Of a stretch of 64,000 nt of DNA, positions 2,944-24,864 are shown piece after piece. Each line of letters opens with the position of its first letter. Position 1 is the stretch's first letter. The notes under the pieces are model-generated. The model had not been told where the DNA came from and did no database searches. It worked only from the letters and a program-made list of their open reading frames with translations. A program made the translations under genes and the position numbers. The stretch comes from Lachnospiraceae bacterium (GTDB lineage: Bacteria; Bacillota; Clostridia; Lachnospirales; Lachnospiraceae): the NCBI GenBank assembly GCA_015057325.1, contig SVEQ01000007.1, positions 62,001 through 126,000 of the forward strand, in the 5' to 3' direction.

Positions 2944-3705
2944 TTATTCCTCGCCGGTAGGCGTATATTTCTTCGGTGTTGTACCGCAGTACTTTCTAAA
3001 TACCTTGGTGAAATAACTTTGACTTGGGAATGCCAAGGCGTCGGAAATCTGAGCAATCGAATAATTGGAATGAGCAAGCATACTTTTGGCGGTCTCAATT
3101 TTTTTAAGCAGGATGTACTCACTTACAGTGCATCCTGTTTCTTTTTTGAAAATTCTGGAAATGTATGAGCTTGAAAGACCGGTTGCTTCGCTTAAGTCTT
3201 CCATAGTTATTCTTGTTGATAAATGATCGTATATATAGTCAATGCAAGTAATAACCGGTTTAGAGCATATAGAAGCCTTCTGCAATTTGCGCATTTTCTT
3301 TGTGTACGCGATACACATTTCATCATGAAGTTCTGAAATCTCTTTTAGAGTTTTGGCTTTATCCACACGCTGTATATAATAGTCACTCATATTGTAGCTT
3401 TCGGAAAGCTGCAGCCCCTGATTAATGCACATACGTGCAATCATAGCTGTAGAGATGACGAAATGATATTTGAGACTCTGTACAGGATTTTTTGAAAGCG
3501 TACCAAAACCGGGCTTTGTATGGAAAGGTTCCTTACACAATTCAAGAACCTTGGCAACGTCCCCGTTTTTGATGCAACCGTAAAATTCCATTTCCGGTTG
3601 ATAGGGGGCATGTATGATATTGTACTCGCGATGCAAAAACTCCTGATAGGAGATTTTCTCGTCGTGAAAAATGCTTATATCGTGGTGTAAATGTTCGGTA
3701 CTCAT
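2944..3705 (-). CDS. AraC-family transcriptional regulator
   Basis: 253 residues from the ATG at 3705, chosen for the AGGAG site 5-6 bases before it. A longer frame to 3774 lacks such a site. The C-terminal ~100 residues carry both AraC helix-turn-helix units: ITMEDLSEATGLSSSYISRI followed by FKKETGCTVSEY, then YSIAQISDALAFPSQSYFTK and FRKYCGTTPKKY. The N-terminal region (about 1-150) is a helical domain without an obvious cupin, resembling AraC proteins whose sensor part is not recognised. It is divergent from the MIF homologue, about 115 bases apart, so that gene is a likely target. The effector is unknown. Confidence 0.88.
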   Translation of the reverse strand: MSTEHLHHDISIFHDEKISYQEFLHREYNIIHAPYQPEMEFYGCIKNGDVAKVLELCKEPFHTKPGFGTLSKNPVQSLKYHFVISTAMIARMCINQGLQLSESYNMSDYYIQRVDKAKTLKEISELHDEMCIAYTKKMRKLQKASICSKPVITCIDYIYDHLSTRITMEDLSEATGLSSSYISRIFKKETGCTVSEYILLKKIETAKSMLAHSNYSIAQISDALAFPSQSYFTKVFRKYCGTTPKKYTPTGEE

Positions 3706-12979: not shown

Positions 12980-13014
12980 AAAGATAACGAGGCTTTGCTT
13001 CGTTATCTTTTTTT
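12980..13014 (+). terminator. Terminator of purA
   Basis: AAAGATAACGA (12980-12990) pairs with TCGTTATCTTT (13000-13010) around GGCTTTGCT, ending in T7. Confidence 0.93.
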
Positions 13015-13097
13015 GTTGGCATTTATAAGAAAATAACGTATAATCAATGTGTTAAAAAATAATGAGATACTTTGATGTTATAAAGGGGATTTTGTAA

Positions 13098-20742: not shown

Positions 20743-21594
20743 ATGGCAGTTAGAATTATTGTAGATTCAGCGAGTGATGTGAGTCAGGCAACAGCAAAGG
20801 AATGGGGGATTACCGTTGTTCCGTTAAAGGTTCGCTTTGGCGATGATGAGTATCAGGACGGAAAAACATTATCCAATACAGAGTTTTATGAAAGACTTAT
20901 AGAGACGGATGTTGTTCCGAAAACAAGTCAGATTCCGCCTGCGGAATATATAGATGAATTTGAAAATGCGGTCGAAGCGGGAGATGAGGTTGTATGTCTT
21001 GTTTTATCATCAGGAGTGTCGGGATGCTTCCAAAGTGCAACAATTGCTTCAAGCGATTTCGAAGATAAGATTCATTTGGTTGATACAAGGCAGTTTTCAC
21101 TTTCTTACTATATTCTTGTTGAGTATGCGGTTCGTTTACGTGATGAGGGCAAGAGTGCCGCAGAAATTGCTGAGGCTATAGAAAATGCTAAATCAAGAGC
21201 CAAGGTGCTTAGCGTATTTGATACGTTAGAGTATCTCAAAGCTGGAGGAAGACTTTCATCAACAGCAGCATTTGTAGGTAATGTATTGTCGATTAAACCT
21301 GTTATTACAATTACTGACGGTGTTGTAGAGGTTATAGGTAAAGCACGCGGATCAAAAAATGGTAACAATATATTAAATCAGACGATAGATAAGGTGGGTG
21401 GAATTGATTTTTCAATGCCAATCTGTTTTGGCTATACCGGTCTTTCCGATGATATGCTTCAAAAGTATATACGTGATGGTAAAGATATTTATGAGGGTAA
21501 GCTTGATGAGTTAAAGGTTGTATCTGTCGGTGCAACAATTGGTACATATGCAGGCCCGGGAGCTATAGCTGTAGCATTTTTTATGAACGAGTAA
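20743..21594 (+). CDS. DegV family fatty-acid-binding protein
   Basis: 283 residues, ATG behind GGGAGGAC. The DegV pattern is clear: RIIVDSASDVS, VPLKVRFGDDEYQDGK, TSQIPPAEY, the LSSGVSGCFQSA lipid-binding Ser/Gly block and DTLEYLKAGGRLS. Members (FakB) bind fatty acids for phosphorylation by a FakA kinase, which is not in this window. The stop codon lies inside the first copy of the 27-bp direct repeat that bounds the next segment, so the original downstream sequence has been displaced by about 3.2 kb. Confidence 0.93.
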   Translation: MAVRIIVDSASDVSQATAKEWGITVVPLKVRFGDDEYQDGKTLSNTEFYERLIETDVVPKTSQIPPAEYIDEFENAVEAGDEVVCLVLSSGVSGCFQSATIASSDFEDKIHLVDTRQFSLSYYILVEYAVRLRDEGKSAAEIAEAIENAKSRAKVLSVFDTLEYLKAGGRLSSTAAFVGNVLSIKPVITITDGVVEVIGKARGSKNGNNILNQTIDKVGGIDFSMPICFGYTGLSDDMLQKYIRDGKDIYEGKLDELKVVSVGATIGTYAGPGAIAVAFFMNE

Positions 21595-21615
21595 AAAATA
21601 TTATTGACAAAAGAA
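21589..21615. repeat. 27-bp direct repeat, left copy (degV stop)
   Basis: Identical over 27 bases to 24779-24805. It begins GAGTAAAAAATATTATTG and ends GACAAAAGAA. It contains the degV stop codon and a TTGACA hexamer. Sequence on either side of the two copies differs. Confidence 0.85.
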
Positions 21616-21713
21616 TATATTGTACTTGTAGTTTAATGAAAAACTCATATATCCATGATATCATTTTTTTGATAGGTTAAGTCCGGAAGAATGATTGAAG
21701 GGAGATTTTAATT

Positions 21714-23360
21714 ATGGGTATTAGCATTCATTTATCGGTATCTAAATCTGTAAAAAAAGAAGAATGGAAGGCAGTATATGAAGAAAGTCTGAAAATGGTT
21801 AAAGCTTTTCCTCTTGCAGAACTAAGAGAAATTGACATCGATGGAATTGACACTATTTGTCTTGTGGAAACTGAAGAACATCAGGAAACATATGGATGGT
21901 ATGATGAAAAAACTAGAGTGGGCTGGGATGCAGTAGGTGACTATAGGTATATGCGTATTGCTGAAGATTATTATCTTCCCAGAGATCTTGTAGATGATAA
22001 GAAATATATTGAGAGGTGTGAGGATGCAATGTTTGGAATACTTCCGGCCTATCTCGATTATGACTGGCAAGATAAGCAATTTGATATTACATATGATATT
22101 TGGGGAGCGAAAACTCAAGGAGAGCCATACCATATGTATCTGTTAGCTATAGCCTGTATGATTGAATCAAGACTATCTAATAAGGCATTTGTCTATGGCG
22201 ATATAACAAGAGGGCAGTGCGTAAGAGCTGTTGAATTGGCTAATGAAGTATTGGATAATCCTATTGAAATACCTGCTAGATGTGATTTAGACAGATTACT
22301 TGAAAGAGTTTCTGCTATGCCATTGACAGAACAGGAGAAAATTAGGGCTTTTGAATGTATTTATCTGGGTAATAAAGATGTAAAGTTTGGGGAGTATATA
22401 AGAAATTATTTTTCAGATGCTGCATTTATTGAATATTGGGAAAAAAGATTCAGCCATTGTACTGTGGAACAATTTGGTTTTCTGGATATTTTCAGTGATT
22501 ATATATTATGGGGATTTGATCTGTCAGATGTGTGCAGATATGTGAAGTTTAAAAACAAAGATGGAAAGCTTCTTTATGAGGATTTTGTGAAATATGTAAT
22601 GGATACGAAACTGCACTTGTTGAATAAGGATTGTAGCGATCCGCTTAAGATTGACGAGGATGAGAGCAGACCTTACGGTGTAAGCACTTTATTTGCGCAA
22701 CTTGTATTTATTGGTGCTAAGAATAAGAAGATTGATAGATTTATTCCTATTGAAGAGATTAGAAAAGCACTTACAGCAAGTATTGGTGATAAATGTGATG
22801 TTAACAATATTATAGATAACTATCTGAGTAAAGAAGCAGAACAGGATAATATAGATTTGTTGAAAATTTCAACGGAAGAAGATTATATAAAAGCCTGTGA
22901 CCAGGATCCGTCTGAATTATACAAACAGTATATAAATAATACTGCGGAGAAAATTGAAAAAATCCGTGAGACATATGATATAGCAGATTTTGATTATTTA
23001 CCTTTTTATGAATCAGGAGATACCATATCCCCTGGCATTTTAAAATCTTTAGGAAAATCATTTGCGTTTTACAGAAGTATTCTCGAAGAGGATAGTTACA
23101 AAGAACTTATGAGAAAGGATTACATATCTCGTTGTCGGTTTTTAGTAGATCAAAATTCATCGATTTTCATTAGGGATACAGACTGGAGAAAAATATTCAA
23201 GGATATCAGAGAAAATGACGAGTCTTTTGCCAGATATTATCCGATGGTTAGGGTGAGTATTACTAGTAAAAACATTGCATATATGATTAATGCAATTGTT
23301 TTAAATGATGAGTTATATGAATATTGTTTTGAGTTGGCTTCGCAATATGAAAAAGAATAG
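21714..23360 (+). CDS. 548-residue protein of unknown function in the degV insert
   Basis: ATG behind AAGGGAG. No signal peptide or membrane segment; acidic, rich in Tyr and Asp. The N-terminal 110 residues (MGISIHLSVSKSVKKEEWKA; many Trp, Tyr and Asp, for example ETYGWYDEKTRVGWDAVGDY) look like a separate domain. A central helical region contains WGAKTQGEPYHMYLLAIACM. From about 400 onward the sequence is highly charged. I do not recognise a family and see no catalytic signature. It is AT-richer in codon choice (ATA, AGA, TTA) than degV or pyk, consistent with transfer. It is the largest gene between the direct repeats and could be the cargo of that segment. Confidence 0.7.
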   Translation: MGISIHLSVSKSVKKEEWKAVYEESLKMVKAFPLAELREIDIDGIDTICLVETEEHQETYGWYDEKTRVGWDAVGDYRYMRIAEDYYLPRDLVDDKKYIERCEDAMFGILPAYLDYDWQDKQFDITYDIWGAKTQGEPYHMYLLAIACMIESRLSNKAFVYGDITRGQCVRAVELANEVLDNPIEIPARCDLDRLLERVSAMPLTEQEKIRAFECIYLGNKDVKFGEYIRNYFSDAAFIEYWEKRFSHCTVEQFGFLDIFSDYILWGFDLSDVCRYVKFKNKDGKLLYEDFVKYVMDTKLHLLNKDCSDPLKIDEDESRPYGVSTLFAQLVFIGAKNKKIDRFIPIEEIRKALTASIGDKCDVNNIIDNYLSKEAEQDNIDLLKISTEEDYIKACDQDPSELYKQYINNTAEKIEKIRETYDIADFDYLPFYESGDTISPGILKSLGKSFAFYRSILEEDSYKELMRKDYISRCRFLVDQNSSIFIRDTDWRKIFKDIRENDESFARYYPMVRVSITSKNIAYMINAIVLNDELYEYCFELASQYEKE

Positions 23361-23462
23361 AGTTTGGAAAACCATTATTTTATACTACAACTATAATGAC
23401 AAATAAATGATAAGCAGTTATGATATTAACAACTAAAAATACAAATGAAAATTATATTAGCA

Positions 23463-23491
23463 TTGTAATTTTTTTATAAATCGAATATAAT
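23463..23491 (+). promoter_or_regulatory. Promoter of the intergenic structured RNA
   Basis: TTGTAA (23463-23468), 17-base spacer, TATAAT (23486-23491). The predicted start near 23498 is the first base of the foldable region. Confidence 0.6.
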
Positions 23492-23497
23492 ATAGGT

Positions 23498-23705
23498 AGA
23501 GCGGAAACGCCTCGATGAAAGAGCATCGTAAAAAGTTGGGCTGCAGATGGAGCAGGGTAAACTTTCCATCTCTTTAGATGTCTTGACTGGACATCGAGTC
23601 TGGCAGCAAGGATTAAAGCTGTAGTCCACGTGGGGGACTTTATGATTTCCACGTCGTTGATGGTATTTTGAATGGATACCGCGGCTGACAACCAGCAGAA
23701 AACTC
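23498..23705 (+). ncRNA. Structured non-coding RNA candidate, about 210 nt
   Basis: A 410-base gap without a gene holds a string of perfect short stems: GCG-GAAA-CGC (GNRA cap, near 23500), CGATG/CATCG, AGATGG/CCATCT, GATGTC/GACATC, CAGC/GCTG, GGTAT/ATACC and GCTG/CAGC. AGAG near the 5' end can pair with CTCT near the 3' end, closing the whole. A good promoter sits just upstream and a T6 run follows. GC content is higher than its surroundings, and no plausible coding frame is present. Size and architecture recall the raiA-motif RNAs of Firmicutes, but I cannot confirm that from memory. It lies inside the repeat-bounded segment. Confidence 0.6.
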
Positions 23706-23713
23706 TTGTTTTT

Positions 23714-23761
23714 TAGATGTAAATAAGGAGTGCGGTTTTCCGCACTCCTTATTTACATCTA
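23714..23761. repeat. 22-bp perfect palindrome before the PBECR4-like gene
   Basis: The arms 23714-23735 and 23740-23761 are perfect inverted copies around a TTTT loop. Each arm reads, from outside in, AGATGTAAATAAGGAGTG followed by CGG. The T run lies before, not after, the hairpin, and the right arm abuts the ribosome site of the next gene. So it looks like an operator or translational control hairpin rather than a simple terminator. Confidence 0.75.
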
Positions 23762-23769
23762 GGAGAAAA

Positions 23770-24414
23770 ATGTCTGAAAAAAGAGAAAAGAAGTACGCAA
23801 TTAGACAGTTTATAATTGAAGCTGCCAGGATATATAGTGAAGAATTAGCAGGAAAATCTTTTTTGTATGTATATGGAAATGAATACTTTGAAGTATCGTT
23901 TCCTACAGATCATTTTTTACATTTAACTGGCGTTGAAAGTATGTTGACTGCAAAAAACTTTTATAAGAGAGCAAAGAAAGGACAGTTGACGGATAAACAG
24001 TTTTATTTTACGTCAAGACATCCTTTTGCTAATGCAAAGAAGAAACTGCCAAGTCTGAAACGTATACAGGAACTTACCAATGATGCGGTTTGTATTTTGA
24101 AAGAAATGAGTACAAATACAGTTGTTTATAAGTTGAGTATTTCAAATCTGGAGTTCACACTCGGTTTGACAGAGGATGTGGATAAAGACAATAATAAGTT
24201 AAGTGATTATTATTTGCCAATGTCGCTTAGGGTAGAAGAGTCTTCGGTTGAGAAAAGCAGTGATTGGGAAATAGTTGATTTTATACTTGTAAAGGATTTG
24301 AGTAATAGGTTATATGATAAGCTATTGTATATAGATGAAAACAAAAGATTGCCTTCTTTGGTACATACATTGGTAAGCAAAGAACTATTAGAAGAGTGTA
24401 AATTAGGAGAATAA
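23770..24414 (+). CDS. PBECR4-like (BECR-fold nuclease-related) protein
   Basis: 214 residues, ATG only four bases after AGGAG, directly behind the 22-bp palindrome. The core pattern (KSFLYVYGNEYFEVSFPTDH, FLHLTGVES, then AKNFYKRAKKGQL) matches what I recall of the PBECR4 group of phage-associated barnase/EndoU/ColicinE5-D/RelE-like nucleases. In that group a beta strand leads to a conserved HLTGV and an F-Y-x-R/K helix. The C-terminal half (KLSISNLEFTLGL onward) is strand-rich. It overlaps no gene but is followed within 5 bases by an XRE regulator, the arrangement of a toxin with its repressor or antitoxin. Family assignment is moderate, and activity is not shown. Confidence 0.6.
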   Translation: MSEKREKKYAIRQFIIEAARIYSEELAGKSFLYVYGNEYFEVSFPTDHFLHLTGVESMLTAKNFYKRAKKGQLTDKQFYFTSRHPFANAKKKLPSLKRIQELTNDAVCILKEMSTNTVVYKLSISNLEFTLGLTEDVDKDNNKLSDYYLPMSLRVEESSVEKSSDWEIVDFILVKDLSNRLYDKLLYIDENKRLPSLVHTLVSKELLEECKLGE

Positions 24415-24419
24415 TTTGT

Positions 24420-24797
24420 ATGGGGAAACAATATCCGGTTATAGATATAGATGCAACTGCTAAAAACATTAAGAATATTATGTATTCAAGAAATATTACG
24501 GTAAAAGACATACAGCGATTTCTAGGGCTTGAAACACCTCAAAGTGTATATCATTGGCTTAATGGAAGAAATATGCCAACGATTGATAATCTATATGCAT
24601 TGAGCGAGTTGTTTCAGATGCCTATTGATACAATCATTATAGGAAATAGAAAGTTTAATACAGATCAAAATAAATCTATTATAGAAGTATATGAGAATTA
24701 CATTTGCCGTGGTGATTTATATGATCGCATGAGATTTTATCTGGTATTAAATTATTTCTATATTTCAAAGAATAGAATGAGTAAAAAATATTATTGA
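24420..24797 (+). CDS. XRE-family helix-turn-helix protein
   Basis: 125 residues. Residues 10-66 are a Cro/C1-type helix-turn-helix (ITVKDIQRFLGLETPQSVYH, WLNGRNMPTIDNLYALSELF). A helical tail of unknown role follows. It starts five bases after the stop of the PBECR4-like gene and is probably translated with it after GGAGAATA. Its last five residues (SKKYY) and TGA stop are encoded by the right copy of the 27-bp repeat, so its 3' end was either shaped by or selected as the recombination site. It is a likely repressor of the upstream gene, perhaps through the 22-bp palindrome. Confidence 0.78.
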   Translation: MGKQYPVIDIDATAKNIKNIMYSRNITVKDIQRFLGLETPQSVYHWLNGRNMPTIDNLYALSELFQMPIDTIIIGNRKFNTDQNKSIIEVYENYICRGDLYDRMRFYLVLNYFYISKNRMSKKYY

Positions 24798-24805
24798 CAA
24801 AAGAA
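24779..24805. repeat. 27-bp direct repeat, right copy
   Basis: Identical to 21589-21615. It encodes the C-terminus and stop of the XRE gene and carries the TTGACA hexamer that serves as -35 for the protease operon. Confidence 0.85.
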
Positions 24806-24864
24806 AACCGGCGTTGTATTATTTGTATTACAAGGAGTAATACAAATAATACAACGCCGGTTTT
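24794..24864 (+). promoter_or_regulatory. Promoter and 28-bp palindromic operator of the CPBP/GntR/ABC operon
   Basis: TTGACA (24794-24799), 17-base spacer, TATTAT (24817-24822). A perfect 28-bp inverted repeat (arms 24804-24831 and 24837-24864, loop AAGGA) covers the spacer, the -10 and the start site; the core is GTATTAC-N5-GTAATAC. A transcript starting near 24829 would contain only the right arm, so the palindrome acts on DNA, most simply as a site for the GntR protein encoded downstream. For read-through from upstream it could also terminate, since T6 follows. Confidence 0.65.

Follow-up and report, generated by a model that had tools for sequence, protein, structure and literature searches.

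The DNA under study, called the window below, is a stretch of 64,000 nucleotides from a Lachnospiraceae bacterium (GenBank assembly GCA_015057325.1, contig SVEQ01000007.1, positions 62,001 to 126,000 of the forward strand). Directly behind its degV gene lies a segment of about 3.2 kb that is bounded by two copies of a direct repeat and that holds a gene for a 548-aa protein, a structured RNA, a gene of the predicted endoribonuclease family PBECR4 and a gene for an XRE regulator. The features, with the basis for each, are as follows.

21585..21615, plus strand: left copy of a 31-nt direct repeat, containing the degV stop codon (the degV open reading frame ends at 21594); sequence comparison, two copies in the genome.
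21714..23360, plus strand: gene for the 548-aa protein, function unassigned by family searches; open reading frame list, matches in 8 of 299 family genomes.
23463..23491, plus strand: sigma-70-like promoter of the RNA, TTGTAA-17-TATAAT; read from the letters, with a probable transcription start near 23498.
23497..23713, plus strand: structured RNA of class C, proposed antitoxin, with two imperfect repeat units by eye; fold, paired changes and model R2.
23714..23761, plus strand: intrinsic terminator between the RNA and PBECR4, a perfect 22-bp stem with a 4-nt loop; hairpin search.
23770..24414, plus strand: PBECR4 predicted endoribonuclease, proposed toxin, with conserved His51 and Ser152; PF18813 match (E 3.7e-28) and alignment.
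24420..24797, plus strand: XRE/HTH_3 regulator, probable partner of the 548-aa gene; domain match and neighbourhood in relatives.
24775..24805, plus strand: right copy of the 31-nt direct repeat, comprising the end of the XRE gene and a -35-like TTGACA; sequence comparison.
24804..24864, no strand assigned: perfect 28-bp inverted repeat with a 5-nt loop, just outside the insert; kept with small changes at an empty site in a relative.

The promoter, the RNA, the terminator hairpin, a Shine-Dalgarno-like GGAG and the PBECR4 gene follow one another in that order, and this is, by sequence, the layout of a type III toxin-antitoxin locus, in which an RNA gene, a terminator and a toxin gene share one promoter. 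By the published rule, in the part of the source available, such loci are recognised by a ToxN homologue with a terminator and a tandem-repeat RNA ahead of it (PMC5086642). An earlier, sequence-only reading of this DNA had listed the structured RNA and PBECR4 correctly but had missed that the two form what their arrangement indicates is one unit; its broader suggestion that the segment carries possible defence or toxin genes is supported. Folding energy contributes modestly here, as the z-score of -7.7 for positions 23480 to 23770 includes the terminator hairpin and is mostly due to it, and the RNA without the terminator (23497 to 23713) reaches a z-score of -2.8, with 1 of 200 shuffles as good. 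For the RNA-PBECR4 unit, comparative evidence outweighs fold energy.

The PBECR4 protein of the window matches PF18813 with an E-value of 3.7e-28 and 99.6 bits against a curated cut-off of 27; PF18813 was its only match, with none to the ToxN family PF13958, and PADLOC and NCBIfam gave no family for it. Intact PBECR4 genes, defined as open frames of at least 175 aa, were found in 49 of 70 loci read, and 40 of the 49 proteins entered alignment A1 (omitted were those of L043, L055, L071, L123, L124, L129, L142, L143 and L144). In these, His51 is present in 40 of 40, Gly54 is invariant, and residue 152 is Ser or Thr in 40 of 40. A predicted model of the window protein (pLDDT, the model's own confidence score, 90) places His51 in a helix (46 to 53) and Ser152 in a strand (143 to 155), and PBECR ribonucleases are described, in the available portion of PMC5512222, as carrying a His in an N-terminal helix and a Ser or Thr in a strand. 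When the model was compared with PDB chains, no clear match to a solved structure emerged and ToxN was not prominent among the rows, from which no exclusion follows, and a sequence search of the PDB with profiles of PBECR4 and of the 548-aa protein returned nothing credible. Together the conserved His and Ser/Thr and the predicted model support PBECR4 as a nuclease, short of showing one.

Whether the arrangement in the window is general can be judged from the distribution of the family. PF18813 matches occur in 50 of 299 family genomes, where 64 rows reduce to 62 places once second fragments (in genomes G142 and G054) are merged; an initial scan of genome contigs with the window protein as sole query had given no match. 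The 70 loci comprise all 62 places, three from closer relatives, one from genome G006, three from plasmids (of 21 records) and one from a phage; L062 is the window, L152 is the G006 locus, and L155 is the same as L110. A terminator-like hairpin lies within 160 nt upstream of 41 of the 49 intact PBECR4 genes, as against 25 of 170 other open reading frames in the same loci (Fisher p 2.9e-19), the controls being any ATG-initiated frame of at least 120 aa on either strand, so that some are not genes. The count is subject to error in both directions, as in L057, L118 and L142 the called hairpin sits within the RNA, and some loci scored as lacking a terminator carry longer-looped hairpins by eye.

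Upstream of 43 of the 49 intact genes stands an RNA of one of four classes: the Rfam family drum (RF02958) in 21 (that of L121 below the gathering score), class B in 13, class C in 3, the window included, and class D in 6. The drum model is independent of these loci; the class B, C and D models were built mostly from the same loci (11 of 13, 3 of 3 and 6 of 6), and the counts for those three classes therefore classify rather than test. The RNAs of classes B, C and D and drum hardly match one another's models. The same RNA-PBECR4 layout recurs in the three plasmid loci, in phage phi1605 and in 6 of 6 IMG/VR loci. Among phage records, neither the window PBECR4 nor a drum-type PBECR4 found a match and a class B PBECR4 found one phage, and the class C PBECR4 found no match in IMG/VR.

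Individual loci show further arrangements. In L071 (2113 to 2475, minus strand) a class B RNA is followed by a class D RNA and then by PBECR4, as if two modules had been stacked; L105 has a class B RNA ahead of PBECR4 and a class D RNA behind; and in L065 two class B RNAs on opposite strands (1242 to 1402 and 3238 to 3397) flank one PBECR4 gene. On the Enterococcus plasmid pMP8-1 (L143, 2495 to 5531) a drum-PBECR4 pair adjoins a gene of the AbiH family, with a recombinase near, a defence-like neighbourhood.

The sequences of the RNAs support their proposed structures through covariation, most strongly in class B. Its unit has the form GUUG-loop-CAAC, in which the loop tetranucleotide would pair with bases beyond a run rich in A and the final loop, together with the tail, would pair back to the 5' end, giving tandem pseudoknots. 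In alignment A8, which holds 15 of 20 candidate loci (L065, L067, L102, L145 and L146 were omitted as divergent or cut), 435 of 435 cells of the pseudoknot are paired, a figure that, with 5 of the 20 candidates omitted, describes a chosen set, and both-side changes occur in 17 of 29 pairs. Of 500 shuffles, 0 equalled the alignment in four of the five measures; the fifth, the number of pair types, is unexceptional (230 of 500). Class D, in which two units can be read from the letters, is weaker than class B, with 98.7% of cells paired and both-side changes in 4 of 25 pairs (6 sequences). For class C, both-side changes occur in 16 of 34 predicted pairs (6 sequences; alignment A10); this alignment leaves out L107, whose RNA, compared with that of the closely related L108, is shortened as though by the collapse of a unit. 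Tandem Repeats Finder (TRF), applied to the 70 upstream stretches, called units of 50 to 54 nt in about two copies in six class B loci (L041, L042, L050, L069, L105 and L115), and no such unit in drum loci.

The linkage can also be read in the opposite direction, from RNA to gene. Among the 299 family genomes, 26 carry drum, at 30 places in all, as found with the stricter Infernal filters that apply to searches of more than 40 genomes and that lose weak matches. Of the 30, 23 have a PF18813 match downstream on the same strand, 14 to 142 nt away; of the others, one has a C-terminal PBECR4 relic, a second sits where its contig ends, and five (L081, L082, L084, L090 and L091) are solitary, their fetched flanks showing no PBECR4 piece. 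Class B occupies 35 places in 29 of 299 genomes, 17 of which lead into a PF18813 match, and among the 20 places for which loci were available 14 have a PBECR4 piece. The corresponding figures for class C, at an E-value of 0.01 or better, are 18 places in 17 of 299 genomes, 4 followed by a PF18813 match, and any PBECR4 piece at 6 of 12 places with loci, two weak pieces more than 1 kb from their RNAs (L179 and L187) not being counted as linked. Of the 62 PBECR4 places, 22 entered this cross-matching, the contigs of the rest containing no class B or C place. Some solitary class B and C RNAs have PBECR4 relics behind them; several solitary RNAs retain the terminator, and some retain stubs or internally deleted PBECR4 genes. 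There is thus an asymmetry, in that PBECR4 without an RNA is exceptional (6 of 49 intact genes) and an RNA without PBECR4 is common in classes B and C. An antitoxin would show this pattern, as would an RNA with a separate role in trans.

On the strength of the layout, of the linkage between RNA and protein across diverse hosts, of covariation and of conserved residues of catalytic type, it is likely that the RNA and PBECR4 constitute a type III-like toxin-antitoxin family, in which toxicity and RNA binding are predicted properties. In such a system one promoter would drive an excess of a folded, repeat-containing RNA, and the terminator would let a fraction of transcripts read through into the PBECR4 gene. 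PBECR4 would be an endoribonuclease that needs no metal and is kept inactive by the bound RNA; should the supply of RNA drop, for instance when a phage takes over the cell or the locus is lost, the freed nuclease would cut RNA and growth would stop. The trigger and any role in defence, like RNA binding and toxicity, are inferred parts of this scheme. An RNA and a terminator directly upstream of a gene are also the layout of an attenuator, and the RNA might instead work in cis, as an attenuator or a ligand-sensing riboswitch that sets read-through into PBECR4 without binding the protein. That four RNA classes which hardly cross-match serve one protein family, that tandem pseudoknot units are indicated in classes B and D, and that copies of the RNA occur with their own terminator and no gene behind them make this explanation quite unlikely.

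Several observations nonetheless weigh against the type III-like assignment. Six intact PBECR4 genes (L106, L112, L118, L124, L129 and L132) have none of the four RNAs, and in L124 and L129 no clear RNA is seen by eye. RNAs of classes B and C are frequently solitary, with a PF18813 match behind 17 of 35 and 4 of 18 places respectively, and in a draw of genomes from the phylum drum was found in 2 of 398, one with a PBECR4 piece nearby and one without. The models of classes B, C and D come from most of the sequences that they later matched. His51 sits in the second helix of the model rather than the first, and the fold is without clear match among solved structures. In the window itself the RNA, taken without its terminator, folds just modestly better than shuffles, its repeats are imperfect, and a pseudoknot in it is hypothetical. 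With these points weighed, the type III-like assignment stands as the likely one, and a broader proposal is probable, with somewhat less assurance: PBECR4 would define a new and extensive superfamily of ribonuclease toxins that are neutralised by RNA and have no relation to ToxN; it would have recruited at least four different RNA antitoxins, including the orphan RNA drum, and the solitary drum, class B and class C RNAs would be leftover or anti-addiction antitoxins.

The other genes of the segment appear to form a module of their own. For the 548-aa protein no Pfam family scored above cut-off, no PHROG, NCBIfam or PADLOC family was found, and searches of plasmids and of IMG/VR gave no match; its model, built from two sequences only, is unusable (pLDDT 34). 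Among five loci read with a homologue of the 548-aa gene, a homologue of the window XRE gene stands directly before it in L135 and directly behind it in L138, and is not adjacent in the other three. The genomes of L135 and L138 have no PF18813 match; XRE thus probably regulates the 548-aa gene and pairs with it rather than with PBECR4. The sequence-only reading had noted the regulator correctly but had missed that it likely belongs with the 548-aa gene. In the window XRE starts 6 nt past the PBECR4 gene, as would suit an ordinary type II pair of protein toxin and antitoxin with the RNA incidental; given, however, the XRE homologues beside 548-aa homologues in two of the five loci, the lack by eye of an XRE gene directly behind PBECR4 in L153 and L155, both of class C (L154 is truncated at this point), and an RNA and about 350 nt that lie between PBECR4 and XRE in G006, a type II pair is highly improbable. 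The insert probably consists of two modules, the 548-aa protein with its probable XRE regulator and, between them, the RNA-PBECR4 unit.

How the segment came to lie behind degV is a question for its boundaries. The exact 27-nt direct repeat (21589 to 21615 and 24779 to 24805), with the degV stop in its left copy and the end of XRE in its right, is where the earlier reading had placed it, and so are the contents that it described, the 548-aa frame, the structured stretch, PBECR4 (PF18813) and XRE (HTH_3). The repeat extends to 31 nt with 30 identities and one mismatch (21585 to 21615 and 24775 to 24805). Its chance frequency had been left as a point to check: no other 20-mer is present twice on the same strand of the window, and a degenerate 25-nt pattern drawn from the repeat is matched twice across the 3.05-Mb genome and not at all on the opposite strand, so that the repeat lies far beyond chance. 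The inverted repeat just outside the insert contains the -10-like TATTAT of a candidate promoter for the CPBP operon (TTGACA, 18 nt, TATTAT, read from the letters), so that transcripts would begin within the palindrome. An Rfam search of the window returned hairpin matches only, on two perfect inverted repeats, and these were rejected as all lay below gathering scores.

In genome G010, of the same genus, DegV is 100% identical, and behind it a single copy of the repeat, one A shorter, is followed by the right flank and the 28-bp inverted repeat, with no part of the insert present. In G021 a degV orthologue (85%) is followed by DNA without match to the window, and the insert is likewise absent. 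The 548-aa gene occurs in 2 of 26 genus genomes, and a PBECR4 match in 4 of 26 relatives, a different draw from genus and order without G006. On this evidence the segment is variable, most simply as an insertion, as had been proposed. It is doubtful, if less so than the other alternatives weighed here, that the segment was instead deleted from G010 when the repeats recombined, in which case they would not mark an insertion in this lineage: the neighbouring CPBP gene has also gone from G010, apparently by deletion between two GGTGATA sites, a 7-nt repeat (L006, near 1381 to 1400), yet the 548-aa gene is confined to those two genus genomes and G021 too is without the insert behind degV.

Genome G006 holds relatives of all four parts (the 548-aa protein at 83%, the RNA, PBECR4 at 65% and XRE by eye) at a locus with other flanks, an ABC transporter gene upstream and an ABC operon downstream, the latter a homologue by eye of an operon 2.8 kb downstream of the insert in the window. 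No copy of the 31-nt repeat showed there in comparison with the window. The G006 locus has a direct duplication of its own, in which the 3' end of the upstream gene, about 156 nt ungapped, flanks the part holding a ToxN relic and the 548-aa gene. That relic (L037, 9397 to 9890) is a decayed ToxN gene with a hairpin-rich leader, the piece past an internal stop matching PF13958 at 7e-24, and it adjoins the 548-aa and PBECR4 genes. Its presence beside the homologous locus speaks for the type III-like reading. Ahead of XRE in the same locus lies a skipping-rope RNA (RF02924, 46.5 bits; 12989 to 13069), itself an orphan RNA, with a terminator-like hairpin after it by eye.

Of the marks of an integrative element, the segment has direct repeats at both ends and, in one relative, an empty site; an integrase or recombinase of its own is not among them, and in agreement with the earlier reading no integrase, transposase or recombinase was seen among the three main open reading frames of 21585 to 24805 (small frames fell outside the scan). 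The exact repeat and the empty site would suit a small site-specific mobile element with the repeat as attachment site and a recombinase acting in trans. Such an element is unlikely, as the repeat has just two copies in the genome, no second insertion at the degV site was seen among the relatives examined, and the parts lie elsewhere in G006. Moreover, XRE in G006 ends in letters similar to the initial ten bases of the 31-nt repeat, so that part of the right copy probably belonged to XRE from the start, in keeping with recombination at short homology rather than with a site-specific element. The proposal of a defined non-autonomous or site-specifically inserted element is accordingly not supported. 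The segment behaves as an insertion, the repeat and the insertion being real but modest, and it probably arrived by recombination at short homology. Recombination of this kind that leaves a duplicated gene end would explain both the window and G006 better than a site-specific recombinase, and through the 31-nt repeats the segment could be lost again.

What matters most is the cargo, which likely represents a type III-like toxin-antitoxin family based on PBECR4; the RNA of the window would be one of at least four classes of antitoxin in it. Most of what is known of type III toxin-antitoxin systems concerns relatives of ToxN and, recently, AbiF, and an unrelated nuclease family with several pseudoknot RNAs would, if the assignment is true, widen the class, give drum a testable function, and point to diverse RNA-protein inhibitor pairs on chromosomes, on plasmids of Enterococcus and Streptococcus, and in phages. 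Among 5.39 million open-access papers, a set outside which subscription papers and bioRxiv fall, none contained 'PBECR4' and one, on structure prediction, contained 'drum RNA'; no title linked drum to toxin-antitoxin systems, the sole listed co-occurrence of the words being a roller drum. Rfam 14 displays drum as an example family.

The ToxIN, CptIN and TenpIN (AbiQ) systems share with the unit described here the order of promoter, RNA, terminator and (here predicted) endoribonuclease gene, on chromosomes and plasmids, as far as the available part of PMC5086642 describes them. Their RNA is a repeat-containing pseudoknot, a form to which class B corresponds best and which the RNA of the window may share. 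The toxin of the window, however, is PBECR4, and the RNAs upstream of PBECR4 match no Rfam antitoxin family, drum being their only Rfam match; as the toxin is not a ToxN homologue, RNA-PBECR4 is a member of none of the three. PBECR nucleases of phage polyvalent proteins belong by name to the same domain clade and place a His in a helix and a Ser or Thr in a strand, but they are described as virion-linked or solo phage effectors, for which the portion of PMC5512222 at hand mentions no RNA partner. Drum, an Rfam family of the small RNA type, stands directly upstream of PBECR4 in 21 of the 49 intact genes, although the RNA of the window is not itself drum. AbiF-RCd22 differs in that the AbiF toxin belongs to Abi_2, a family of HEPN type, and not to BECR, and in that its RNA, the abiF motif (RF03085), is unmatched in the window. 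As set out in the accessible part of PMC12373285, that RNA was an Rfam motif, lies in two copies with a terminator before the toxin gene, and is reported to neutralise the toxin by RNA-protein contact, so that AbiF-RCd22 provides a direct precedent for an Rfam motif turning out to be a toxin-neutralising RNA.

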